From Niveibacterium microcysteis (GTDB taxonomy: Bacteria > Pseudomonadota > Gammaproteobacteria > Burkholderiales > Rhodocyclaceae), in assembly GCF_017161445.1 (NCBI RefSeq), contig NZ_CP071060.1:434001-498000 (forward strand): a stretch of DNA of 64,000 bases. The letters run 5' to 3'. Of this stretch, positions 4,279 through 42,299 are shown in pieces. The notes beneath the pieces were generated by a model. The model was not told the origin of the DNA. It made no database searches and was given only the letters and a program-made list of their open reading frames with translations. Within the stretch, counting starts at the first letter, position 1. Every line of letters begins with the position of its first letter. The translations under genes were made by a program, and so were the position numbers.

Positions 4279-5325
4279 TTACTCGACGACCTCGTCCGGC
4301 TTGCTGCCGTTGAGCCATTCGATGCGCCGCGCGAGTGCTTCGGTCACCTGGATGCGGCCCGCGGCATCCACACGCAGGCCCTGGTCGATGCCGTAGGCTG
4401 CAATGCGTTGGCGCCAGTGTGCGCCGTCAATGAAGGCCGGCTTGCTGGCTGCGTCGGACAGTGTGCCGGCACGCGGCCGCGCTGTGATCAGGATCGTGAG
4501 GCTGCGTGTCTCGGTCGCGGGGCTGCCGGTACGCGGATCGATTAGGTGGCAGAAGCGCTGGCCGTCACGCTCGAAGAAGCGCTGGTAATCGCCTGAGGTG
4601 CCGATCGCCTCGCCGTCTTTCAGCGGGAGCGCGGCAATCGCGCCGGCGCCGCGCGGATTCTGGATGCCGACTTTCCAAGGCTGCTCGCCCTTCGCGCCCA
4701 GGGCGAGCACGTTTCCGCCGATGTTGATCAGCGCGTTGGCGACGCCCTGGTCACGCAGGATGGTTGCAGCGCGATCCAAAGCCCAGCCCTTCGCATAGCC
4801 ACCCAGATCGAGCTGCACCGCACGGTTGCGGCTGCTGACGCGGGTGCCATCGATCGTCAGATCTTCCATCGACGGGTGCGCAGCCACGGCCGCCCGCAGC
4901 GCCTCCGGATCGGGGGTGACGGGCTCGTACTGGTCGCGATGGAAACCCCAAAGGCCGATCAATTTGCCGATCGCCGGATCGAAGAGCTGCCCGCCCTGTG
5001 CCGCAAGGGTCTTGGCTTCGCTCAGCATGCCGGCCAGCTCCGACGACACCGTCGCCGTCTCGCCGCGGGCCAGCGCCTCGTTCAGTGCGGTCAGTTCCGA
5101 CGGCTGCCAGCCATGGTAGGCCCGGTGCATACGGTCGAACTCGCGCAACACGGCTCCCACGGCCTCGCGCGCCTTGGCCTCGGGCACTCCCCAGGTCGTG
5201 ATCTCAACCCGAGTGCCGAAGACGAAGGATTCTTCATGGTGGGCGGTGTAGCGAGCACAGGCACTCAAACCCGCGATCGCGAACAGGGAGAGAATGGCTG
5301 CAATGAGTCGTCGGGCGCGTTGCAT
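4279..5325 (-). CDS. apbE: FAD:protein FMN transferase (ApbE), lipoprotein
   Basis: Covalently attaches FMN from FAD to Thr/Ser of acceptor proteins in the periplasm. The 348-residue protein begins MQRARRLIAAILSLFAIAG and has a lipobox LSAC with Cys23. Family motifs are LDLGGYAKGWALD, NIGGNVLALG and, near the C-terminus, LSDAASKPAFI. The start is the ATG ahead of the signal peptide; a longer upstream frame has no coding character. No NosX-type ApbE lies in the nos cluster 5 kb away. NosR there carries a perfect flavinylation site (DAISGAT), so this enzyme is a good candidate for NosR maturation; Nqr/Rnf-type proteins elsewhere are alternative substrates. Confidence 0.9.
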   Translation of the reverse strand: MQRARRLIAAILSLFAIAGLSACARYTAHHEESFVFGTRVEITTWGVPEAKAREAVGAVLREFDRMHRAYHGWQPSELTALNEALARGETATVSSELAGMLSEAKTLAAQGGQLFDPAIGKLIGLWGFHRDQYEPVTPDPEALRAAVAAHPSMEDLTIDGTRVSSRNRAVQLDLGGYAKGWALDRAATILRDQGVANALINIGGNVLALGAKGEQPWKVGIQNPRGAGAIAALPLKDGEAIGTSGDYQRFFERDGQRFCHLIDPRTGSPATETRSLTILITARPRAGTLSDAASKPAFIDGAHWRQRIAAYGIDQGLRVDAAGRIQVTEALARRIEWLNGSKPDEVVE

Positions 5326-5431
5326 CGGCGGCGTATTCTTGGTTCGGTGACGACCAGAATGTACCTTGCCTGAAAGCGCCCGGCATTGCGCTTGATTCAG
5401 AATTGGAGCACCGCAGCCCCCGCCGCCAAAG

Positions 5432-6322
5432 TCAGCGGACTTCGACTGAATAGTCTTGCAATGTAGTTGTCCCAGCCCCTGCGATGACCTCATTTCCAAG
5501 GTCGATCGACGATAGCCACTCGGCTCCGGTAATGACGCGGCGGGCTATCAGGTCGTCGAGAAATAGACGCACACTGACCTGATAAGGTGAGCTGGGCTTT
5601 TGCTTGGGCTGGTAGGTGACGAACTGCCACGGCCCGGGGCCCCATGTTGCAGTGATCTGGTACACATTCCAGTCGCGTCCGTCGATCGTTGTCTCGCCGA
5701 TCTTGTCGCCAACTGGTGAGAAGTTGCCCCATTCGTCCAGCAGGATCATGAGCTCCGTATGGAGCGGTAGGTTGCTGGCGCCTGGTGCGAGAATGCTTGC
5801 CTTCGTGATCCAGATGTCGAAGGCGAAATTGCCGCCGCCGTTGTTCGAGTGTGTGACCTGTGCGCCGAAACGCGCGGTGACATCCTTGATCGTGTTGATG
5901 ACCCGAGGCAGTGCCGCAGTTGTGGAGCTGGAGAACCAAGGGTTCTGTCCGAAAAAAAGCTCCGGAAACGCGTGTATCGACTCGTTGCTACTCAGTGGCC
6001 AATCCCAGCGCCAAGTTGGGCTTACGCTGCCGTCAGCGCCAGGTCTCATCGTCAGGCAACTTGTATAGTTGGTGACGGCCCCCTTGTTCCAGTTGTTGTT
6101 TACCAGCAAGTATGAGCCGAGACGGCCGTTGGCCTGGTCTTTGCAGAACTCCTGGCCGGAGAGATCTTGGGACTGCGGCACGCGTGGAGCCACAGATGGA
6201 CTTGAGACGTTAAAGTCCGCAATCCCGTTCTGGTCGTTCGTTGTGCCTTCATCTCCGCCGCCACAGGCGCACAACATCAGCGCAAGGGCAAGGGCGGGAA
6301 GCAGGCGGATATGCGCGTTCAT
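5432..6322 (-). CDS. GH12-like glycoside hydrolase (endoglucanase/xyloglucanase), lipoprotein
   Basis: A 296-residue lipoprotein: signal peptide MNAHIRLLPALALALMLCAC with the lipidated Cys followed by a Gly/Asp/Thr/Asn linker. The remainder resembles glycoside hydrolase family 12 beta-jelly-roll enzymes, which cleave beta-1,4-glucan or xyloglucan: NNNWN and TNYTSC near the N-terminus, FPELFFG, and TELMILLDEWG, where the Glu matches the family nucleophile (YELMIW-type). A second Glu near the end (ITGAEWLSS) may be the acid/base. Start set by AGAGGTG upstream; a GTG-type extension adds 10 residues without a better site. G+C is about 53-58 percent in places, visibly below its neighbours, which suggests acquisition by transfer. 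Confidence 0.75.
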   Translation of the reverse strand: MNAHIRLLPALALALMLCACGGGDEGTTNDQNGIADFNVSSPSVAPRVPQSQDLSGQEFCKDQANGRLGSYLLVNNNWNKGAVTNYTSCLTMRPGADGSVSPTWRWDWPLSSNESIHAFPELFFGQNPWFSSSTTAALPRVINTIKDVTARFGAQVTHSNNGGGNFAFDIWITKASILAPGASNLPLHTELMILLDEWGNFSPVGDKIGETTIDGRDWNVYQITATWGPGPWQFVTYQPKQKPSSPYQVSVRLFLDDLIARRVITGAEWLSSIDLGNEVIAGAGTTTLQDYSVEVR

Positions 6323-10027: not shown

Positions 10028-10534
10028 TCACATCTTCTGGTCGTGGTCCATGCCGCCGTCCATGCTCACGGCGTCCGGCTTGATCTCGGCGTAGGCCACC
10101 ACCTTGCCGCCGTATTGCTGTGCGAAGGCGTCGGCTGCGCCGCGTTCGGCAAAGCTCGCGAGCGTCGGGCCCATGCTGCCGTGGCGCTTGGAGCCCTGCA
10201 CGTAGAAGGCGGCCTTCGCGTCGATCCACGCGTCCTGCGGCTTGTCCCAGTCGGTCTTCGCCATGTCCTGCACATAGGCACCCTTCATTGCGCGCTGCTG
10301 TTCGGGCTTGAGCAGGGTCGCGATGATCTCGCGCGTATCGCAGAAGAAGTCGTGCTGGCCGTCGGCCCACACGATCTGGCCCTTGGGGCCGGGGAAGTCG
10401 GCCAGCGTCATGCCGTCCAGCGAGCACGCGTCGCCACGCGCGATGGAAGCCGGCTTGTCGTCGACCGGTGCCTTGCTGCAGGCGGCCAGGGCTAGAAACA
10501 GGCCGAGGGTCAGGATGCGGAAACGGGGTTTCAC
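10028..10534 (-). CDS. nosL: NosL copper chaperone lipoprotein
   Basis: Outer-face lipoprotein that delivers Cu(I) to apo-N2O reductase through NosDFY. At 168 residues it has signal MKPRFRILTLGLFLALAAC with lipidated Cys19. The conserved NosL region CSLDGMTLADFPGPKGQI contains the Cys/Met pair expected to bind copper. FFCDTREI and VYVQGSKRHGSMG-like segments follow, then a Met/His-rich tail (SMDGGMDHDQKM). The start overlaps nosY by 4 bases. Last gene of the nosRDFYL operon. Confidence 0.93.
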   Translation of the reverse strand: MKPRFRILTLGLFLALAACSKAPVDDKPASIARGDACSLDGMTLADFPGPKGQIVWADGQHDFFCDTREIIATLLKPEQQRAMKGAYVQDMAKTDWDKPQDAWIDAKAAFYVQGSKRHGSMGPTLASFAERGAADAFAQQYGGKVVAYAEIKPDAVSMDGGMDHDQKM

Positions 10535-11346
10535 TTGAATCTCCAGTAGGCAAGGGCCAGCGGTGCGGCGATCCAGCCGGCCATCACGCCGCCGAGCACC
10601 GCAGGGTTGGCGAGCGCGGGCGGGAAGACGGTGGCCAGGCCGTACAGCGCGCCGACCTGGTCGAGGCTGAACACGTTGAGGATGCGGAAGACGTCGGTCG
10701 GGTTGGCGAGCAGCAGCCAGGGCAGGGCGTCACCTGCGCCGCTGCCGCCCAGGGCGATGAGGCCGCCGAGCAACACCAGATCGAACACGATGACGAAGAG
10801 GAACCAGGCGCCGACCGCGTAGCCCGAGGCGCGCGCGCGGTCGCTTGCCAGTACCGACAGCAGTACCGCGATCGCGAGGAACACCAGCCCGAGCAGGATC
10901 GCCGACGCAACAAAGCCGGCGTAGTGGAACAACGCGTCGCCACCCGCGGTGAGGAAGGCCGCGCCGGCCAGCCCGAAGCCGAGCACCGTGGCCACCGTCA
11001 GCGTGGCGGCAAGCCCGACGAACTTGCCGACCAGCACCTCGCCGCGCGTCACCGGTAGCGCAAGCAGCAGTTCCATCGTGCCGCGCTCGCGTTCGCCGAC
11101 GATCACGTCGAAGCCCAGCACCAGCGCGATCAGCGGGATCAGGTAGGTGACCAGCGAGACGAGGCTTGCGATCGTCACGTCGATGCCGCGAAAGCCGACC
11201 TGGCCTTCACTCGCGGCACCGAAGTAGGCAATTGCGAGCGCGAAGCCGGCGAACACCGTGGCGATCACCCACACCCAACGGTTCCGCACGCGGTCGCGGA
11301 ATTCCTTGCCGGCGATCGCGGTGATCTGTTGCAGCACGATGTTCAT
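10531..11346 (-). CDS. nosY: NosY, membrane permease of the NosDFY copper-site assembly transporter
   Basis: A 271-residue ABC-2 type membrane protein with about six hydrophobic segments. With NosF and NosD it forms the complex that assembles the CuZ centre of N2O reductase. The N-terminus IAGKEFRDRVRNRWVW is the cytoplasmic coupling region of NosY-like permeases, and VGERERGTMELLLALPVTR is the ABC-2 signature. Both ends overlap neighbours by 4 bases (nosF before, nosL after), so it is translated as part of a coupled block. Confidence 0.95.
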   Translation of the reverse strand: MNIVLQQITAIAGKEFRDRVRNRWVWVIATVFAGFALAIAYFGAASEGQVGFRGIDVTIASLVSLVTYLIPLIALVLGFDVIVGERERGTMELLLALPVTRGEVLVGKFVGLAATLTVATVLGFGLAGAAFLTAGGDALFHYAGFVASAILLGLVFLAIAVLLSVLASDRARASGYAVGAWFLFVIVFDLVLLGGLIALGGSGAGDALPWLLLANPTDVFRILNVFSLDQVGALYGLATVFPPALANPAVLGGVMAGWIAAPLALAYWRFK

Positions 11347-12245
11347 GCGGCCTCCTGCGAGTGTTCGAGGAACACGGCTTCGAGCGAAGGCTCGACCAGC
11401 CGCAGGTCGCTGACGCCCGGCTCCGCCGCCAACTGAGCGATGCGCGCGAGCTTGTCGCCGCGATTCACGCTCAACGCCACATGGGCCGCGTCTTCCGCGC
11501 TAGCGCCCAGCGTTGCGATCAGTCGCTCGCGTGCTTCGGCCGTCACCCGAACGATCAGCCGCACCGGCAGCTCGGCCCGTTCGCGCAGTTCGGCGACGCT
11601 GCCCTGCGCCACGATGCGGCCTTCGCGCAGGATCGCCACCTCATCCACCCGCTGCTCGATCTCGGCGAGGATGTGCGAGGTCAGCACCACGGTTGCGCCT
11701 TCGGCCTTGAGCTCGGCGATGACGCGGTAAAAATCGTGGATCGCCTGCGGGTCCAGCCCGTTCGTGGGCTCGTCGAGAAACAGCAGTTTCGGTTTGCCCA
11801 GCAGCGCCTGCGCAAAACCGAGCCGTTGCCGCATCCCCTTCGAGTAACCGCGCACCTTGCGTGTCGCCGCATGGGCGAGGCCGACACGTTCCAGTGCCGC
11901 ATCGCATTCGGCGCGCGCCGCGCCGCGCAGCTTGGCGTAGAAGCGCAGGGTTTCGAGGCCGCTCAGGTTGTCGTACAGCGCGACGTGTTCGGGCAGGTAG
12001 CCGATCTGCTGGCGCACTTCGCGGAAGCGCGCGCCGTCGCTGGGCTCGCCGAGCAGGCGCAGCGTTCCGGCGTCCGGCACGATCAACCCGAGCATCATGC
12101 GGAACAACGTGCTCTTGCCGGCGCCGTTGTGGCCGATCAGGCCGAAGGTGCGACCGGGTGCGACGGCAAGTGAGACGCCGCGCACGGCTTCCACTTCGCC
12201 GAAGCGCTTGGTGACGCCGGTGAGTTCAATGGCGGGCGCGTTCAA
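11343..12245 (-). CDS. nosF: NosF, ATPase of the NosDFY transporter
   Basis: ABC ATPase powering NosDFY. Walker A GHNGAGKST, signature YSKGMRQRLGFAQALLG and Walker B LLFLDEPTNGLD are intact. I choose the TTG at 12245 (giving MNAPAIELTG, 300 residues, the usual NosF length) because TGGAGA lies 8 bases upstream. The frame stays open upstream to 12338, but that stretch overlaps nosD and looks non-coding. The start lies 20 bases inside the end of nosD. Confidence 0.93.
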   Translation of the reverse strand: MNAPAIELTGVTKRFGEVEAVRGVSLAVAPGRTFGLIGHNGAGKSTLFRMMLGLIVPDAGTLRLLGEPSDGARFREVRQQIGYLPEHVALYDNLSGLETLRFYAKLRGAARAECDAALERVGLAHAATRKVRGYSKGMRQRLGFAQALLGKPKLLFLDEPTNGLDPQAIHDFYRVIAELKAEGATVVLTSHILAEIEQRVDEVAILREGRIVAQGSVAELRERAELPVRLIVRVTAEARERLIATLGASAEDAAHVALSVNRGDKLARIAQLAAEPGVSDLRLVEPSLEAVFLEHSQEAA

Positions 12246-13491
12246 GCCAGTATCTCCATTCTGGGTGGCGGGGGCGCATCGCAGGCGAGGGTTCCACCAC
12301 GGTGGGTGCGCGCAGCACCGGGAACTGCCGGGCGGCAAGGCGCAGGGTTTCGACCGCCGGGCTGTTGAGCAGTACGCGGGCCGCGGGGTAGCGCCACATC
12401 AGGCGGTCCACCAGGTCGGCGGCTTCGAAGGGTACGTCGCCGCGGCCATCGCCGTTGCGATCCCAGCCGAGGTAGCCGCTCCAGTGGTTGCCGGCTTTCG
12501 GCCCCCACACCTCGTCCTTCGCGCCAACGTAGCGCACGCCTTCGTGGTTGCCGATGAAGTCGTTGCCGTCGACCTGGTTGTGCCAGGAGCCGGCCGACAG
12601 GTGCACACCGACTTCGTTGCGCACCACGAGGTTGCCGGTCAGGGTGTTGTCCTGGGCGTCGTAGATGAAGAAGCCGCGGCCGTTGCCGGCGATGATGTTG
12701 CCGCTGACCTCGGCGCGCTGGATCGTGCGCAGCATGATGCCGTGATCGGTGTTGGCCCACGCGATGTTGTTGCGCACCACCTGGTCATGCACCTCCATCA
12801 GCGCGAGCCCGCCGCGGTTGTGGTGCACGAAGTTCTTCTCCCAGGTGTTGAAGTAGGAGTTCATGTAGTGCGTGCCGTAGCGGCTGTCGTGGATCTCGTT
12901 GCCGCGGAACAGCGCGTGGTGCGACACGTCGACATAGATGCCGTCGCGCGAGTAGCTGATGTGGTTGTCGAGGATCTTCGCGCCCTGCGTGTTGTAGAGC
13001 TGGATGCCGTTGCCGCGGTTGGGCGAGAGGTAGTCGCGCTTGCCGGCGATGCGGTTCTTTTCCACCACCACGTCGTTGGCCTTCTCGATCCACAGCCCGA
13101 ACAGGTTGTAGGCGAGCTGGTTGTTGCGCACCACCGCGCGGTGCGCGCCCGGCTGGATGTAGATGCCAGCCTGCTGCTTCGCGAGGTCGTCACCCGAATC
13201 GCGCACCACGAAACCTTCGACGCGCACGTCGGGCGAGACGATGCGGATCACATCCCCCGACATGTCTCCGCTGATCGTTGGCATGTTCTCGCCAATCAGC
13301 GTGAGCGGCTTTTCGATCCGCAGGTGCTCGTGATACTGGCCGCGCGCCACGCGGATCGTGTCGCCCGGCTGGGCGCGCACGATCGCCGCCGCAATCGACT
13401 CGCCGGCCGCCACATGCAGTTCGGCGGCAGCGGCCGTGCCGGCAAGCAGCAGCGTGATCGACAGGAAGGCGATGCGAAGGGCGGAGCACAT
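12226..13491 (-). CDS. nosD: NosD, periplasmic copper-processing beta-helix protein
   Basis: A 421-residue secreted protein that receives copper from NosL and works with NosFY on NosZ maturation. Signal peptide MCSALRIAFLSITLLLAGTAAAA, then repeated right-handed beta-helix (PbH1/CASH) units rich in the pattern hxxNxh, for example VVRNNQLAYNLFG, VVEKNRIAGKRDY and VSGNIIAGNGRG. It starts 10 bases after nosR. A much longer upstream frame lies within nosR on another frame and is discarded. Confidence 0.94.
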   Translation of the reverse strand: MCSALRIAFLSITLLLAGTAAAAELHVAAGESIAAAIVRAQPGDTIRVARGQYHEHLRIEKPLTLIGENMPTISGDMSGDVIRIVSPDVRVEGFVVRDSGDDLAKQQAGIYIQPGAHRAVVRNNQLAYNLFGLWIEKANDVVVEKNRIAGKRDYLSPNRGNGIQLYNTQGAKILDNHISYSRDGIYVDVSHHALFRGNEIHDSRYGTHYMNSYFNTWEKNFVHHNRGGLALMEVHDQVVRNNIAWANTDHGIMLRTIQRAEVSGNIIAGNGRGFFIYDAQDNTLTGNLVVRNEVGVHLSAGSWHNQVDGNDFIGNHEGVRYVGAKDEVWGPKAGNHWSGYLGWDRNGDGRGDVPFEAADLVDRLMWRYPAARVLLNSPAVETLRLAARQFPVLRAPTVVEPSPAMRPRHPEWRYWLERARH

Positions 13492-13501
13492 GCGCTTGAG
13501 C

Positions 13502-15655
13502 CTACGGAGCCTCGCCCCGCACTTCCTTGATCGGAATGAAGTAGCCGTCGCGCCCGATCGGGGTGAGCTTGAGGCCCGCCTTCTCGCGCCGCTTGCGCTC
13601 GGTCGCCAGGGGCGGGCAGGCGTGCGCGTCGTGGTAGTACACCATGCAGTCGAGGCATAGCAGGCACTCGCGCTGGTCGATCTTGCCGTCTGCCGCAATC
13701 GCCAGCGAGCCGCACTGCACAGCGCAGGCCTTGCACGGGCCGCATTCCTTTTTGCGGCGCAGGCCAAAGAGGCGGAAGCTGGTCGGAATCGCAAGCCCGG
13801 CGCCCAGCGGGCAGAGGTATTTGCAGAATGGGCGTTCGATGAACAACGAGAGCCCCAGCACGACCGTGAAGAACAACTGGAAGGGCCAGCTGCGGTTCCA
13901 CGGGCCAACGAGGAAGGTTGTCTTGAAGGGTTCGACCTCGGCGAATTGCTCGGCCACCGTCATCGACCACAGCGACACCGCCATCAGCGCAAAGAACACG
14001 CCGTACTTCACCCACTTCAGCTTGTCGTGCAGCGGCTTCGGGACGTGGCGCTGGAAGCGCTTCAAACCCAGCTTGCCGGCGATCTTGTAGGCCAGCTCGG
14101 ACAGCGAACCGAAGGGGCACAGCCAGCCGCAAAAGAGCCCGCGGCCCCATACGAACAGCGTGATGAAGATGAACCACCAGAAGACGAAGATGAAGGGGTC
14201 GGTGAGGAACAGCTCCCACTCCCAGCGCGAGATCAGGGAGTGGAACCAGGTCATCACATGCGTGATCGAGGGCTGCGCCATCAGCACGCCACCAATCCAC
14301 ACGATGCTGACCGTCCAGAACACATACTTGGGCCAGGCCACCCAGCGCTTGTCGCGGATCGTCGCGCGCGCAGTCAGCCAGTCGCGGCGTGAGTAGGTGA
14401 AGGCGACGATGGTGAGGAAGGCGACGAAGAAGACGATGCTGACCGCCTTGTCGCGCCAGATCTTCTTCCAAGGGGCCTCGGGTTCGCTCACTGCCGGGCG
14501 GCCACCTTCGAGCCAGGCATCCGGCAGCCACAGCTTGGTCTCGAAGTTGATGAACTGGCGCTGACCGGTCGACTTGTCCTGCTTGTTGGCGAGGTAGACG
14601 AAGCGGAACGGCCAGGCGGCGGAGAAGCTTGCATCGCGCAGGATGAAGATGCTCGATTCGCGGAAGTTCGGGTGGCCTTTCGCCTGCAGGGAATAGAGGT
14701 TCAGGTAGTCGAGATCGCGAAAGGTGTAGGTGTCCGCATCCTGCTTCACCTGAACGCGATCGAAGATGCCGCCGCGCACGAAGCCGGAGCCCTTGAAGGA
14801 GCCGGCGCCATCGCTGATCACCATCAGCGCGGTTTCATGCGGCTTGAGCCGCGTCATCAGCGCACGCCATTCGGTCGCACCCAGCACCGCACGGCCCAGC
14901 GTCGGGTGGTTCAGCACGCCGACCCACAAATCGAGGTAAGGCTGGCCGGTATCGGGCTCGCCCACGTCGGCCGGCTGCAGGGTCAGGCGCGATACGGCGC
15001 CGGCCTTCACCAGCGCGTCCCAGTCCGCGATGTCACCGACGTCCTTGTAACGCGCGCTCGGGCGCACTTCGCTCTTCAGGATGCCGACCTTGCGTGCCAC
15101 CTGCTGCGCCGCGCGGGTGATGACCTGATTTTCGGCAACGACGGTCACCGTCGCGCCGGAAATTGCATCGAGCCCGACGGTCTGCTTGTCACCACTACCG
15201 ACCTCGAAATGCTGCGCAACCGATTTGCCGAGGTACTGGCCGACGAAGGCGTCCAGCTTCGTTTCCGGAATTCCCAGCAGAAGAATCGGTTCGGAGTGCT
15301 TCAGCACATGGATGCCGGTGAAGCGCCCGGCAGTGTCCATGCCGATCAGCGTGATCACCGGCTTGCCGGAGTAGGCCGGGATGTCGACCAGATCGGTCGA
15401 GAGAAAGACGTAGCCGATCGCCTTGTCGCCCTTGTAGCCGGTCGCGAAGCGCGGCTGCCCATCGCGTGGCGAGAAGCGCTCGGCGCCGGGCAGCACCGCC
15501 TTGCAATCGGTGTAGGCGCAGAGATCCGGTGCGGTGAAGAGTTCGGGCGCGAGCTTGGCTTCATACGCCAGCGCCTGTACTGCCGTGGGCTGCAGGCACA
15601 AGAGCGCGGCGGCCAAGGCGATCGTTGCGCGAAGAAAACGGGTGAAACGGGGCAT
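13502..15655 (-). CDS. nosR: NosR, flavo-iron-sulfur membrane protein for N2O reduction
   Basis: Polytopic protein that passes quinol electrons towards NosZ and supports nosZ expression and activity. The 717 residues comprise a signal sequence, a periplasmic FMN-binding domain with acceptor motif DAISGAT (Thr169 predicted flavinylated), and five to six membrane helices from about residue 415. Two CxxxCP motifs (CGWLCPFG, CKYLCPLG) and two C-terminal 4Fe-4S binding sets (CGPCKACAVQC and CLLCLDC) follow. First gene of nosRDFYL. GGAG lies 9 bases before the ATG. Upstream are two regulatory elements shared with the distant nosZ promoter. Confidence 0.97.
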   Translation of the reverse strand: MPRFTRFLRATIALAAALLCLQPTAVQALAYEAKLAPELFTAPDLCAYTDCKAVLPGAERFSPRDGQPRFATGYKGDKAIGYVFLSTDLVDIPAYSGKPVITLIGMDTAGRFTGIHVLKHSEPILLLGIPETKLDAFVGQYLGKSVAQHFEVGSGDKQTVGLDAISGATVTVVAENQVITRAAQQVARKVGILKSEVRPSARYKDVGDIADWDALVKAGAVSRLTLQPADVGEPDTGQPYLDLWVGVLNHPTLGRAVLGATEWRALMTRLKPHETALMVISDGAGSFKGSGFVRGGIFDRVQVKQDADTYTFRDLDYLNLYSLQAKGHPNFRESSIFILRDASFSAAWPFRFVYLANKQDKSTGQRQFINFETKLWLPDAWLEGGRPAVSEPEAPWKKIWRDKAVSIVFFVAFLTIVAFTYSRRDWLTARATIRDKRWVAWPKYVFWTVSIVWIGGVLMAQPSITHVMTWFHSLISRWEWELFLTDPFIFVFWWFIFITLFVWGRGLFCGWLCPFGSLSELAYKIAGKLGLKRFQRHVPKPLHDKLKWVKYGVFFALMAVSLWSMTVAEQFAEVEPFKTTFLVGPWNRSWPFQLFFTVVLGLSLFIERPFCKYLCPLGAGLAIPTSFRLFGLRRKKECGPCKACAVQCGSLAIAADGKIDQRECLLCLDCMVYYHDAHACPPLATERKRREKAGLKLTPIGRDGYFIPIKEVRGEAP

Positions 15656-15679
15656 TGCCAGGCACTCCGGACCTTTGGT

Positions 15680-15694
15680 GCGGCAAAGTGTCGC
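15680..15694. promoter_or_regulatory. Inverted repeat GCGGCAAAGTGTCGC upstream of nosR
   Basis: Half-sites GCGGC and GTCGC are separated by 5 bases and flanked by T and A (TGCGGCAAAGTGTCGCA). The element lies 25-39 bases before the nosR ATG. The same pattern, TGCGNCAAAKTGTCGC, occurs twice upstream of nosZ. It resembles the two-half-site GCGNC/GNCGC element described for RegA/PrrA/RoxR response regulators, and a regA gene lies beside nosZ. The match is seen directly; binding is inferred. Confidence 0.55.
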
Positions 15695-15715
15695 AGTCCG
15701 GGGGCGGTCGCTTCC

Positions 15716-37787: not shown

Positions 37788-38338
37788 CAGGCGTGCCCGG
37801 CGACGTCCGAGAGGTTGGTGAAATCCACGCCCAGCAGTTTCATCGCGGCATCGAGCCGGTCTTCGGGCGGCAGATCGAAGATGATGCTCAGGTCGGCGGG
37901 CACCGTCAGCCAGGCGTTCTGCTTGAGCTCGTCTTCAAGCTGCCCGGCCGACCAGCCGGCATAACCGAGCGAGATCAGTACCTCGCCGGGCTCGCCGTTC
38001 GCGCCGAGCGATTCGAGGATGTCTTTCGAGCTGGTCAGGGCCACGCTGTCATTCACTTTCAGCGACGAATGCCACTCGCCGGCCGGCCGATGCAGCACGA
38101 AGCCGCGATCGGTCTGCACCGGGCCGCCGAAGTAGACCGGGCGCTGGGCCAGGTCGGCCGATTCGAGTGCGATGTCGACCTTGCTGAAGAGCTCGCCGAG
38201 CGTCATGTCGATCGGCCGATTGACGATCACGCCGAGCGCACCGTCTTCGTTGTGCTCGGCGATGTAGGTCAGCGTGCGGGCGAAATTCGGATCGTCCATG
38301 GCGGGCATGGCGATCAGGAAATGATGGGTCAGGTTCAT
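37787..38338 (-). CDS. YqgE/AlgH-family protein
   Basis: A 183-residue DUF179 protein: [47 protein letters not shown] and [14 protein letters not shown]. The biochemical role is unknown; it is nearly always next to ruvX. The ATG at 38338 has GGAG just upstream; a GTG 9 bases earlier is an alternative. First gene of the yqgE-ruvX-pyrR-pyrB-pyrX group. Confidence 0.93.
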
Positions 38339-38455
38339 GGGCTCCACACCCTCATTCTATCAGGCGTGCCGCCGGGTGCAGTGACCGCGGTGGCGCTTGC
38401 GTAATTGTTTGCGCTCAAGGGCATGCGGCAGGGGCCGGCGCTAGGCTTGCGCCCC

Positions 38456-39697
38456 ATGTCGATCCATTGCCTTCCGCGCACGCTGTCGCCGCTCGAGCCC
38501 GCTGCGCAGGCGCGCCTGATGCTGTTGGTGCGCTTGCGCTGGCTGTTTGTCGCGGTGTGTTGGGTGCTTGCCGCGCTCGGGCTGTTCGGCGCGCACCTTC
38601 CGGTTGAGGGCGTTGCACTGGCCGGATTGGCCTTGCTGGCGCTCAACCTTGCAACGCTGTGTGCCCTGCGCAGGCGGCAGGTGGCCTGGCTGACGCCGCG
38701 CGGCATCTTCCTTCAGTTGCTTGCGGATACGTTGGCGTTATCCGTGCTGGTGCAGCAGACCGGCGGGCTTGCGAGCCCCGCAGTGGGCGCATATCTGGTA
38801 CCGATCGCGCTGGGCGCGAACCTGCTGCCGCGTGCTGGCTGTTGGGCGATGTTCGCCTGCGCGGTGGCGAGCTACAGCGTGCAGGCTTTGCTGCCGAGCC
38901 GGGTACCCCATGTGCACGGCGTTGCCGCGTTCACACTGCACCAGGCCGGCATGTGGCTGACGGTGGTTGCGGCCGCTGCACTGCTGGCGGGCTTCCTGGC
39001 ACGTGCAGCGGACTTGCTGCGACGCTGCGAACGCGAGTTGGCCACGGCGCGCGAAGCGGTACTGCACCAGGAGCGACTGGTTGCACTGGCGGGCTTGGCG
39101 AGCACGACCGCGCATGAACTGGCGACGCCACTGGCGACGATGAGCGTCACGCTTGAGGACTTGGCGGCTGACGCCGCGCTGCCCGCGGCGCTGCGCGGCG
39201 ACGTGGCGCAACTTGGCAGACAACTGGCCCGTTGCCGCACGGCCATGGAAACGCTCGCCAGCGCGGCAGGCGTAGCACGCGGCGGAAACGCGCGGCGCAT
39301 GCCGCTGGCTGAGTGGCTAGCCGAGCTGGCGGACCAATGGCGTATTCGCCAGCCGCAGGTGCGCGTGGATCTGGAATGCGACAGCGCGCACACCGTCGTG
39401 GCTGAACAAAGCCTCGGCCATACGCTGCAGTGGCTGCTTGACCATGCCGCGTCGTTGGCGCCCGCCGCGGTGTCGCTTGCGGCGCGCGTGGAGGCGGACA
39501 GTCTGCAGATTGCCGTGCGCGACTGCGGGGCGCGTGTGCCTGAAGCGCTGCGCGACGCGATGCGTGATCCGACGCAAAGTCACGGCGAGTTGAGCCACGC
39601 TACCATCGCCCGGCTCGGCGGCCGCCTGGACGCACGCCCGTTCCGCGGTGGTACCGAGCTGGTGATAACCCTCCCCCTGGCTGCACTGAGCCCATGA
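38456..39697 (+). CDS. regB: RegB/PrrB-type redox sensor kinase with degenerate ATP-binding domain
   Basis: A 413-residue membrane sensor with about six N-terminal helices. Between them QTGGLASPAV resembles the quinone-binding GGxxNPF heptapeptide of RegB. The H-box ASTTAHELATPLATM (His220) matches the RegB/RoxS signature, and Cys260 in QLARCRTAM sits where RegB has its redox-active Cys. The catalytic domain is eroded. The N-box Asn is absent (LLDHAA), G1 reads DCGAR instead of DxGxG, and the GLGL motif is missing (DPTQSHGELSH). It may act as a phosphatase or need another kinase. Start uncertain: an ATG at 38423 is also possible. Overlaps regA by 4 bases. Confidence 0.82.
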   Translation: MSIHCLPRTLSPLEPAAQARLMLLVRLRWLFVAVCWVLAALGLFGAHLPVEGVALAGLALLALNLATLCALRRRQVAWLTPRGIFLQLLADTLALSVLVQQTGGLASPAVGAYLVPIALGANLLPRAGCWAMFACAVASYSVQALLPSRVPHVHGVAAFTLHQAGMWLTVVAAAALLAGFLARAADLLRRCERELATAREAVLHQERLVALAGLASTTAHELATPLATMSVTLEDLAADAALPAALRGDVAQLGRQLARCRTAMETLASAAGVARGGNARRMPLAEWLAELADQWRIRQPQVRVDLECDSAHTVVAEQSLGHTLQWLLDHAASLAPAAVSLAARVEADSLQIAVRDCGARVPEALRDAMRDPTQSHGELSHATIARLGGRLDARPFRGGTELVITLPLAALSP

Positions 39698-40224
39698 ACG
39701 TACGCCGTTTGCTGATCGTTGAAGACGACCCCTCCTTGTCCGAGGTGCTGTGTCGCGCCTTTGAGCGGCGCGGCTACGAGGTCCATGCGGAAATGCATGT
39801 CGCGGGCGCTTGCCGAGCCGCGTGCGAGTGGCCGAGCGATTGCGCGGTGGTGGACCTGAAGTTGCCGGATGGGTCGGGCTTGAAAGTCGTCGAGGCGCTC
39901 GCAACCGCGCAGCCGGATTGCCGCATCGTCGTGATGACCGGCTATGCCAGCGTCGCCACCGCGGTTGAAGCGATCAAGCTGGGCGCCACGCACTACCTGA
40001 CCAAGCCGGCGAGCATCGCAGAAATCGAAGCGGCGTTTGATCGCACCGAAGGCGATGCCGAGGCGGAGGCGATTGATGAGCCGATGCGCGTTGATGCGGT
40101 CGAGTGGGAGTACATCAATCGCGTGCTGACCGAGCAGGACGGCAACATTTCTGCGACCGCCCGGGCGCTTGGCATGCACCGCCGGACCCTGCAGCGCAAG
40201 CTCGCGCGCCCGCCCGAGTCCTGA
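39694..40224 (+). CDS. regA: RegA/PrrA/ActR-type response regulator
   Basis: A 176-residue redox response regulator. Receiver domain with LLIVEDDPSL, Asp54 (VVDLKLPDG), Thr82 (VVMTGYAS) and Lys104 (LTKPAS), a linker, then a Fis-type helix-turn-helix. Its GNISATARALGMHRRTLQRK is the near-invariant RegA recognition helix. Such regulators control respiration and denitrification genes in alpha- and betaproteobacteria. nosZ follows after 137 bases that contain two GCGNC/GTCGC inverted repeats. Confidence 0.93.
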   Translation: MNVRRLLIVEDDPSLSEVLCRAFERRGYEVHAEMHVAGACRAACEWPSDCAVVDLKLPDGSGLKVVEALATAQPDCRIVVMTGYASVATAVEAIKLGATHYLTKPASIAEIEAAFDRTEGDAEAEAIDEPMRVDAVEWEYINRVLTEQDGNISATARALGMHRRTLQRKLARPPES

Positions 40225-40239
40225 GCCTTCGGGGCGCCT

Positions 40240-40254
40240 GCGACAAATTGTCGC
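40240..40254. promoter_or_regulatory. Inverted repeat GCGACAAATTGTCGC upstream of nosZ (site 1)
   Basis: Half-sites GCGAC and GTCGC separated by AAATT. Centre at 40247, 115 bases before the nosZ ATG. It has the layout of the GCGNC-N5-GNCGC element described for RegA/PrrA/RegR-type regulators. It could also affect readthrough from regA, whose stop is only 16 bases upstream. Confidence 0.55.
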
Positions 40255-40261
40255 GAGTCAA
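40248..40261. promoter_or_regulatory. Crp/Fnr-type box TTGTCGCGAGTCAA upstream of nosZ
   Basis: TTG-N8-CAA repeat overlapping the right half of site 1. It is 12/14 identical to the box upstream of nosR. If centred at -41.5, transcription starts near 40296 and the -10 falls on TAGAGT (40284-40289), which matches TATAAT at four of six positions. The spacing supports an activator site, but no binding evidence exists. Confidence 0.42.
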
Positions 40262-40283
40262 TTTTTTCCCTCCGCGCGGCGCA

Positions 40284-40289
40284 TAGAGT
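40284..40289 (+). promoter_or_regulatory. Candidate -10 hexamer TAGAGT of the nosZ promoter
   Basis: Correctly placed relative to the Crp/Fnr-like box (centre 40254.5) for class II activation. No -35 consensus is needed in that geometry and none is obvious. Confidence 0.35.
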
Positions 40290-40291
40290 CC

Positions 40292-40310
40292 GTGCGTCAA
40301 ATTGTCGCAC
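40292..40310. promoter_or_regulatory. Inverted repeat GTGCGTCAAATTGTCGCAC upstream of nosZ (site 2)
   Basis: The core GCGTC-AAATT-GTCGC has the same spacer as site 1 and longer arms (GTGCG/CGCAC). Its centre lies 54 bases, about five helical turns, from site 1, so a regulator could bind both on one face. It overlaps the predicted transcription start, which would suit a repressing or fine-tuning role. It closely matches the nosR-upstream repeat at 15680. Confidence 0.55.
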
Positions 40311-40361: not shown

Positions 40362-42299
40362 ATGGACAAGAAGCAGGAACACCAGGAGCCGAGCACCCCC
40401 GACGTCAGCCGCCGCAAGTTCCTCGGCAGCTCGGCGATGGCTGGTCTGGCCGGCGCGACCTTGGGTCTGGCCGGTTGCAACAAGGGTGAACAGGGCGCGA
40501 CGCCGGCACAGTCCGCCCCCGCCAAGGCGGCCGCGGCGGCAGGCGGTGATGCACACGAGATCAAGCCCGGCCAGCTCGACGAGTACTACGGCCTGTGGTC
40601 CGGTGGTCACTCCGGCGACGTGCGCGTGCTGGGTTTGCCGTCCGGCCGCCAGATCAAGCGCATTCCCGTATTCACGCCCGATCCGCTGACCGGCTGGGGT
40701 ACCACCAACGAATCCAAGGCCATCATCGGCACGAAGCCCGATGGCACGCCGCTGTACCACGTTGGCGACACCCACCATGTGCACGGCAGCTATGCCGACG
40801 GCACTTACGACGGCAAGTATGCGTGGGTGAACGACAAGCTCAATTCGCGCATTGCCCGTATCCGCCTGGACATCATGGAATGCGACAAGATCACCGACAT
40901 TCCGAACGTTCAGGGCTTCCACGGCATCTTCCCGGACAAGCGCGACCCGGTCGATGCGGCAATCAATCGCACGACGCGTGTGTTCTGCGGCGCCGAGTTC
41001 TCGATTCCGCTGCCGAACAACGGCAAGACCTCGGATGACCCGGCGACCTACCGCTCGCTGTTTACCTGCGTGGACGCCGAGACCATGGATGTGCGCTGGC
41101 AGGTGGTGATCGACGGCAACTGCGACCTCGTTGCGACCACCTACGACGGCGCTTTTGCGGCGACCAACCAGTACAACACCGAGATGGGCGTGCACTACCA
41201 GGACATGATGTCCGCCGAGAAGGACGCCTGCCTGTTCTTCCACGTTGCGCGCATCGAGGAAGCAGTCAAGGCGGGCAAGTTCAAGACCTACGGCGACAGC
41301 AAGGTGCCTGTGGTCGACGGCACCAAGGAAGCCAACAAGGATCCGAAGACCGCGCTGACCGCGTATGTGCCGGTGCCGAAGAACCCGCACGGCGTGAATG
41401 CTTCGCCCGATGGCAAGTACTTCATCTGCGCCGGCAAGCTCTCGCCGACGACGACCACGATCGAAATCGCCAAGATGCACGAGTGGTTCGACGGCAAGCT
41501 CGACGACATCAAGAAGACCATCGTCGCCGAAGTGGAAGTCGGCCTCGGCCCGCTGCACACCGCCTTCGACGGTCGCGGCAATGCCTACACCACGCTGTTC
41601 CTCGACTCGCAGGTCGTGAAGTGGAACATCGACGCGGCGATCAAGTTCTACGCTGGCGACAAGAACAGCAAGTATGTGGTTGACCGCATCGATGTGCACT
41701 ACCAGCCAGGTCACATCAACGCCTCGATGTCCGAGACCAAGGAAGCGGACGGCAAGTACCTCAACGTCGGCTGCAAGTTCTCGAAGGATCGCTTCCTGCC
41801 GGTCGGCCCGCTGCACCCCGAGAACGAACAGATCATCGACATCTCGGGCGAGAAGATGCGCCTGCTGCGCGACGACCCGGTCTGGCCGGAGCCGCACGAC
41901 TTCATCATCGTCAAGCGCGACATCATCAAGACCAAGCAGGTCTTCCAGCTCGACGACTTCCCGCTCGCGACCAAGAAGGCCGAAGACTCCGGCGTGGAGC
42001 GCAAGGGCAACAAGGTCACGGTGCGCATCGCGTCCTACGCGCCGCAGTACCAGTTGCAGGAGTTCAAGCTGAAGAAGGGCGACGAGGTCACGATCATCCT
42101 GACCAACCTCGACAACGTGGAAGACCTGACGCACGGCTTTGGCATCCCGAAGTACGACGTTCAGTTCATCGTGAACCCGCAGGAAACCAAGTCGGTCACC
42201 TTCAAGGCGGACAAGGTCGGCGTGTTCTGGATCTACTGCACGCACTTCTGCCACGCGCTGCACCTGGAGATGCGCTCGCGCATGATCGTGGAAGCCTGA
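40362..42299 (+). CDS. nosZ: Nitrous-oxide reductase (clade I, Tat-exported)
   Basis: Periplasmic copper enzyme reducing N2O to N2, the final step of denitrification. 645 residues with a twin-arginine signal (VSRRKFLGSSAMAGLAGATL). A seven-bladed propeller holds the CuZ histidines (VGDTHHVHGSY, and others such as HGIFPDKRD and KNPHGVNASPDG), and the C-terminal cupredoxin domain has the CuA motif CTHFCHALHLEM (Cys626, Cys630, His634, Met637). The Tat signal and length mark the typical clade I form. GGAGGAGAG precedes the ATG. Unusually it stands apart from nosRDFYL and directly after regBA. A terminator follows at 42337. Confidence 0.98.
   Translation: MDKKQEHQEPSTPDVSRRKFLGSSAMAGLAGATLGLAGCNKGEQGATPAQSAPAKAAAAAGGDAHEIKPGQLDEYYGLWSGGHSGDVRVLGLPSGRQIKRIPVFTPDPLTGWGTTNESKAIIGTKPDGTPLYHVGDTHHVHGSYADGTYDGKYAWVNDKLNSRIARIRLDIMECDKITDIPNVQGFHGIFPDKRDPVDAAINRTTRVFCGAEFSIPLPNNGKTSDDPATYRSLFTCVDAETMDVRWQVVIDGNCDLVATTYDGAFAATNQYNTEMGVHYQDMMSAEKDACLFFHVARIEEAVKAGKFKTYGDSKVPVVDGTKEANKDPKTALTAYVPVPKNPHGVNASPDGKYFICAGKLSPTTTTIEIAKMHEWFDGKLDDIKKTIVAEVEVGLGPLHTAFDGRGNAYTTLFLDSQVVKWNIDAAIKFYAGDKNSKYVVDRIDVHYQPGHINASMSETKEADGKYLNVGCKFSKDRFLPVGPLHPENEQIIDISGEKMRLLRDDPVWPEPHDFIIVKRDIIKTKQVFQLDDFPLATKKAEDSGVERKGNKVTVRIASYAPQYQLQEFKLKKGDEVTIILTNLDNVEDLTHGFGIPKYDVQFIVNPQETKSVTFKADKVGVFWIYCTHFCHALHLEMRSRMIVEA

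Follow-up and report, generated by a model that had tools for sequence, protein, structure and literature searches.

The two nearly identical palindromes between a RegA-like regulator gene and nosZ are, judged from sequence comparison, very probably RegA-type boxes, and nosZ is very probably a direct RegA target. We give about even chances to the reading that RegA directly brakes an FNR-type-activated nosZ promoter, for which we infer the sign of control, the binding, the transcription start and the signal.

Probable RegA-type boxes between regA and nosZ

Removal of N2O is the function of the enzyme NosZ; transcription of its gene is usually explained by FNR/DNR-type activators. In the window (the whole stretch of 64,000 nucleotides analysed) nosZ (40362..42299, + strand) codes for a nitrous oxide reductase of clade I (TAT), which scores 1011.6 bits with TIGR04244 (cutoff 625). 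The signal region of the protein, SRRKFLGSSAM...LAGC, is of the TAT type with a possible lipobox.

A RegB-like sensor kinase gene (38405..39697, +), a RegA-like response regulator gene (39694..40224, +) and nosZ are arranged in tandem. Both regulatory proteins match their family models with scores under the NCBIfam equivalog cutoffs (ActS/PrrB/RegB, 145 bits, cutoff 350; ActR/PrrA/RegA, 180.2 bits, cutoff 250). The RegA-like protein of 176 aa consists of a receiver (PF00072) and a Fis-type HTH_8 domain (PF02954), which is the architecture of about 180 aa expected for the family. Its recognition helix MHRRTLQR is identical to that of the PrrA effector domain 1umq, and the helix residues H, R, R, L, R and L are invariant in all 72 sequences compared, our own included. 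It is the single RegA match of the genome at E up to 1e-20; the next-best match (E 1.4e-14) covers the receiver only. The RegB-like protein has the H-box HELATPL and the cysteine in QLARCR, but its quinone motif is degenerate, with GGLASPA (GGLASPL in congener G035) instead of GGXXNPF, a motif found in strict form in 30 of the 68 RegB-type sequences compared (own included). As the H-box and the cysteine are kept without GGXXNPF, the sensed signal may differ.

The 137-bp gap between the stop of the RegA-like gene (40224) and the nosZ ATG (40362) contains both palindromes, which are assigned no strand: site 1, TGCGACAAATTGTCGCG, at 40239..40255 and site 2, TGCGTCAAATTGTCGCA, at 40293..40309. Re-reading of the sequence places GCGACAAATTGTCGC at 40240-40254 (centre 40247) and GTGCGTCAAATTGTCGCAC at 40292-40310 (centre 40301), 54 bp or 5.1 turns apart from centre to centre. 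The sequence-only reading, which had reported two repeats with this spacing between regA and nosZ, was thus correct in sequence and coordinates.

It had left to a genome scan whether the motif occurs at chance frequency, and the scan found it to be non-random. The exact 17-mer TGCGNCANNNTGNCGCA occurs at only two places in 4.85 Mb, namely at site 2 and at 15679-15695 of the window, before nosR, and allowing one mismatch adds nine further places in the genome, site 1 among them. Within the window there are four matches at up to one mismatch, compared to a mean of 0.86 in shuffled sequence, and four were reached in none of 100 shuffles. When a RegA-box profile was built from the nosZ boxes of 14 other organisms, with our own window excluded, site 1 scored 16.5 bits (E 0.08) and site 2 15.8 bits (E 0.14) in this genome. 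They are the top two among the five places listed at E up to 10, with 150 of 2838 first-look candidates scored; the box before nosR is absent from these five.

Co-occurrence of box and RegA

The distribution of the box was analysed in two sets of genomes, with RegA counted as present at E up to 1e-20. The GTDB set comprises 30 nosZ loci, 29 of them with usable upstream DNA, and the box was sought in the 600 bp that precede the nosZ match. RegA is present in 19 of these 29 genomes and a box with up to one mismatch at 14 of the 29 loci; the box occurs in 14 of the 19 genomes with RegA and in none of the 10 without (Fisher 2e-4). With up to two mismatches the counts are 14 of 19 and 2 of 10 (p 0.016). 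Five of the 19 RegA-bearing genomes have no box at nosZ, and their RegA match reaches at most 146.3 bits, while 13 of the 14 boxed genomes have a RegA match above 160 bits and the remaining one (G007) has 146.5 bits.

In the family set, nosZ was found (E up to 1e-100) in 66 of 199 genomes, and the best 30 of the 66 loci were taken; 29 promoters have upstream DNA, L186 being left out because it lies at a contig end. With up to two mismatches, a threshold set after viewing the listing, all 20 genomes with RegA have the box and none of the nine without (Fisher 1e-7). Counted by genus, with our own genus entered on both sides, the box is found in 10 of 10 with RegA compared to 0 of 5 without (3e-4), and at up to one mismatch it is found in 13 of 20 genomes compared to 0 of 9. 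L010 of the GTDB set and L187 of the family set are apparently one genome, without RegA and without box; the sets were counted separately. In four family genomes (L196, L206, L207, L209), the predicted nosZ leader carries a tandem of two adjoining RegA-type boxes at a distance of 16 bp, and regB is transcribed divergently from nosZ.

RegA-type boxes also lie before other genes of relatives, namely before regB and, for eight of the 21 exact boxes inspected, before DUF2244-coxB genes (names from translations). These eight boxes come from seven genomes, and the 21 from chosen stretches of the 61 places found in 29 genomes (reversed-pattern control, 21). A palindrome of the form GCGNC-N5-GNCGC thus stands before nosZ and co-occurs with RegA, as expected of a RegA-type box. 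Two claims of the sequence-only reading, that the repeats are RegA-type boxes and that nosZ is probably a direct RegA target, therefore gain support from the RegA co-occurrence, from the recognition helix common with PrrA and from the boxes before regB and cox in relatives.

Geometry of the nosZ promoter

Site 1 overlaps a putative FNR/DNR-type box, TTGTCGCGAGTCAA (40248..40261, no strand assigned), with which it has TTGTCGCG in common. This box is one mismatch away from TTGAY-N4-RTCAA and non-canonical relative to TTGAT-N4-ATCAA; TTGTC variants occur at the same place in L196, L200, L206, L207 and L209. In our own genome TTGAY-N4-RTCAA is enriched, with 23 places compared to 4 in the reversed control, and the scan detected no mismatch-free copy in the nosZ promoter.

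The -10-like hexamer TAGAGT (40284..40289, +) lies 22 nt after the FNR-type box, the distance expected for a -10 element at an FNR/DNR class II promoter. To judge from the sequence, the spacing of these two elements is class II geometry. It predicts a transcription start (+1) near 40296, which puts the FNR-type box at -41.5, the centre of site 1 at -49 and site 2 at -3 to +14, an operator-like position.

The same arrangement is seen in other promoters. We collected 34 nosZ promoters that carry a box and, 35-65 bp before it, an FNR-like dyad with up to two mismatches; the count includes L017 and L208, where the choice of box is doubtful (spacings 63 and 59). The -10 hexamer score has its maximum at an offset of 22 nt after the FNR-type box (mean 1.43, compared to -4.07 at the next-best offset), and TA...T is found at this offset in 20 of the 34. 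There is no such peak after the RegA box in these promoters. In 32 of the 34, an FNR-type box begins 42-53 bp before the beginning of the RegA box and is its conserved upstream partner; the predicted transcription start falls within the conserved RegA box or shortly before it. Four of the nine RegA-less family genomes (L185, L197, L201, L212) combine an FNR-like element with TAnnnT in a similar promoter that lacks a box, a pattern not found in the other five. From these four it seems that the box is an addition to a promoter that also occurs on its own. The idea that site 1 replaces the FNR box (54 bp, compared to about 53.5 bp in Methylotenera) was rejected, as an FNR-type box overlaps site 1 and is correctly spaced to TAGAGT.

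The congeners provide a natural experiment. G033 (RegA 97% identical) and G035 (84%) keep the gene order regB-regA-nosZ, both boxes and their spacing. In G032, whose NosZ is 92% identical, no RegA match was found at E up to 1e-20, and neither a RegB nor a RegA match in the DNA examined before nosZ. Its nosZ promoter has each box broken in one arm, site 1 in the left and site 2 in the right, and the FNR-type box TTGTCGCGAGTCAA and TAGAGT are unchanged; the -10 is kept in four congeners. Outside the genus a counterpart exists for site 2 alone; site 1 is genus-specific and was observed in no congeners other than the three that bear RegA.

Brake or activation

In the proposed mechanism, the boxes would be operators for the RegA-type regulator encoded directly upstream, and the nosZ promoter would be activated by a regulator of the FNR/DNR type. 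With RegA bound at site 2, which covers the predicted start, RNA polymerase would be obstructed, and this would put a brake on nosZ and thereby on N2O reduction whenever the RegB-like sensor puts RegA into its binding state. In this genus site 1 may provide a double lock: as it has TTGTCGCG in common with the FNR-type box, RegA bound there should compete with the activator and could exclude it.

It is the location of site 2 over the predicted start that suggests braking, and it makes doubtful the activation that the sequence-only reading had implied. The positions of the -10 elements point in the same direction. At nosZ the best -10 lies before the RegA box in 33 of 34 promoters. For regB boxes it lies after the box in 24 of 30 cases, with four opposite and two ties; loci where regB and nosZ have a common gap were left out of this count, one promoter contributed several of the 30 boxes, and in L155 sequence upstream of the box is lacking. 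The before/after comparison was used because the offset profile of regB boxes alone is diffuse. At the eight cox boxes of relatives this comparison by itself is undecided (5 of 8), but with a -35/-10 pattern composed after viewing the sequences, seven of the eight boxes stand 5-8 nt behind a TTGA..-N16-18-(-10) pair, compared to 0.2 expected. Relative to the -10, placement is thus activator-like at regB and operator-like at cox and nosZ.

Published RegA effects on nos genes differ in sign, as far as the accessible parts of the sources go. In Rhodobacter capsulatus, RNA-seq is reported to indicate aerobic repression of nosZ and nosR by RegA (PMC5359404), while RegR of Bradyrhizobium japonicum acts positively on nos and binds the nosR promoter in EMSA (PMC4064962), and the RegA-type regulator of Burkholderia pseudomallei is likewise described as positive (PMC8191878). 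Among oxidase genes, cox is reported to be repressed by RoxSR in Pseudomonas aeruginosa (PMC5436846), and of six oxidases in Burkholderia cenocepacia a roxS deletion is described to affect none but cyd and cio-1 (PMC11742914). RegA of Acidithiobacillus ferrooxidans reportedly bound mostly upstream of -35, and according to the same source no RegA motif could be found (PMC5506826).

The two positive cases on nos, B. japonicum and B. pseudomallei, favour direct activation of nosZ by RegA, with site 1 near -49 recruiting polymerase or replacing an FNR-type activator and site 2 being auxiliary or fine-tuning. There is also a parallel in spacing, since the regB boxes of L155, L161 and L164 stand 27 nt before TAAAAT and site 1 stands 28 nt before TAGAGT. 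However, it is site 2, located over the predicted start, that the family conserves; site 1 is confined to the genus and coincides in part with the FNR-type box. Moreover, both the FNR-type box and the -10 persist in RegA-less G032, as though expression could do without RegA. We therefore consider direct activation rather unlikely.

Other roles for the palindromes

Site 1 might instead be an intrinsic terminator of regBA without regulatory function, so that RegA would bind only site 2. It scans as a stem of seven pairs with a loop of 3 nt and a T-rich tail (-8.1 kcal/mol on its own), and the stem is lost in G032, which has no RegB/RegA match before nosZ; the loss of site 1 could equally be explained by the absence of regBA upstream. 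Yet the RegA-box profile built from foreign sequences scores site 1 slightly above site 2. The T-run is kept in stemless G032, and L190 and L199, for which no box is listed at that place, likewise have a T-run behind the FNR-type box. It therefore seems to be part of the promoter. A terminator role that displaces the RegA box is thus unlikely; both roles of site 1 could coexist.

The suggestion, made on the basis of the 54-bp spacing, that RegA dimers on sites 1 and 2 act cooperatively or by looping across five turns fared less well, and we consider it improbable as the main mechanism. The exact spacing is kept in three congeners, a pair of boxes 54 bp apart occurs before regB in one relative (L156:66-136), and RegA of At. 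ferrooxidans is reported, in the accessible part of the paper, to multimerise on its targets (PMC5506826). Beyond the genus, however, a single box position is conserved, that of site 2, and its upstream partner is the FNR-type box; in L196, L206, L207 and L209 the second box lies 16 bp downstream instead.

It is very improbable that the palindromes act as RNA hairpins in the nosZ leader rather than as DNA sites. Site 2 would be located in the leader and folds at -4.2 kcal/mol, but site 1 is upstream of the predicted start. In addition, pairs 2/16, 4/14 and 6/12 are intact in all 21 distinct boxes, but a Watson-Crick pair at 5/13 is formed in just 11 of them; such freedom at the N of GCGNC is what one expects of a protein site. 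That sites 1 and 2 are chance palindromes of a GC-rich genome has next to no probability, for although the loose class of palindromes (up to two mismatches) is frequent, with 773 places in the genome compared to 531 in the reversed control, chance is contradicted by the genome rarity, the profile scores, the shuffles, the conservation, the RegA co-occurrence and the decay of the boxes in G032.

The nosR box and the extent of the regulon

The sequence-only reading had overlooked a third RegA-type box in the window, TGCGACACTTTGCCGCA when read towards nosR (15679..15695, no strand assigned), which ends 23 nt before the start codon of a nosR-like gene (13502..15655, - strand; NCBIfam NosR, 620 bits, below the cutoff of 1000). 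This box lies within a conserved block, and all four congeners have it in identical form, even G032, for which no RegA match was found. As it is intact in this RegA-less congener, its assignment to RegA is less confident.

The nosR-like gene is located about 25 kb from nosZ, together with accessory genes on the - strand: a NosD-like ORF (12226-13908), which overlaps nosR and has a provisional start codon, a nos ABC ATPase (11343-12338) and a nos ABC permease (10531-11346), all three assigned by Pfam and NCBIfam. An ApbE-family gene (4279-5499, Pfam) is close to this block. Congener G032, by contrast, has nosZ and nosR side by side.

Boxes comparable to those at cox and regB of relatives were not found in our genome. 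There is no DUF2244 gene in the genome, which does not imply the absence of an aa3 oxidase, and in the regB region of the window there is no further box at up to one mismatch, nor any at up to four mismatches in 38150-38410. The third-best place in the profile search, L148 (C1:2591235-2591249), is about 95 bp upstream of a NifQ gene, which is followed by a gene for a solute-binding protein; on this sequence match nifQ may be a weaker candidate RegA target. In a Methylophilaceae genome, boxes were noticed upstream of a katG-like gene (L129:2008) and a TonB-receptor-like gene (L128:7741), named from translations.

With the strongest boxes at nos genes and none found at cox or regB, the RegA regulon may have narrowed to nos. 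A more far-reaching version, which we put forward as a tentative possibility, is that a formerly broad RegBA system has in this genus become a largely dedicated brake on N2O reduction, its two boxes blocking the activator site and the start. It builds on the tandem arrangement of RegBA with nosZ and on the strongest boxes being those at nosZ and nosR.

Relation to known systems and biological meaning

The system resembles RegB/RegA, PrrB/PrrA, RegS/RegR and RoxS/RoxR in its linked kinase and short Fis-type HTH regulator, in the helix MHRRTLQR and in a box of the GCGNC-N5-GNCGC type. It differs from RegB/RegA-type systems in its sub-cutoff NCBIfam scores, in the quinone motif GGLASPA and in having its strongest own-genome boxes at nos genes.

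Control of nos genes by the RegA family is already known. R. capsulatus RegA, a RegA-type protein that lowers nosZ and nosR, parallels what is predicted here; that case comes from RNA-seq, and no operator or promoter geometry for nos was noticed in the accessible part of the paper (PMC5359404). Bradyrhizobium RegR provides the parallel for direct binding of a RegA-family protein to a nos promoter, demonstrated there by EMSA and predicted here, but it differs in exerting positive control, in acting at the nosR promoter and in its imperfectly conserved half-sites, according to the accessible text (PMC4064962).

As in CRP/FNR class II nos promoters, the FNR-type box is near -41 with the start at the expected distance; the accessible parts of the respective papers describe a FixK2-like box whose centre is 40.5 bp from a mapped nosR start in Bradyrhizobium (PMC5582078) and DNR boxes before nosZ (PMC1274295). 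Unlike in those promoters, one RegA box lies over the predicted start and another over the FNR-type box. For Ca. Accumulibacter an FNR motif before nos genes is described, and a RegA box goes unmentioned in the accessible text (PMC6446978). In the literature searched, mostly outside subscription journals, we found no RegA box over a nosZ start, and likewise neither a family-wide co-occurrence with RegA nor a second box over the FNR-type site.

In summary, the repeats resemble real docking sites of a redox-sensing regulator on the nosZ switch, where it is predicted to act mainly as a brake. The sign of control may be determined by where the box lies, and this could explain why opposite signs have been reported for RegA-type control of nos genes.
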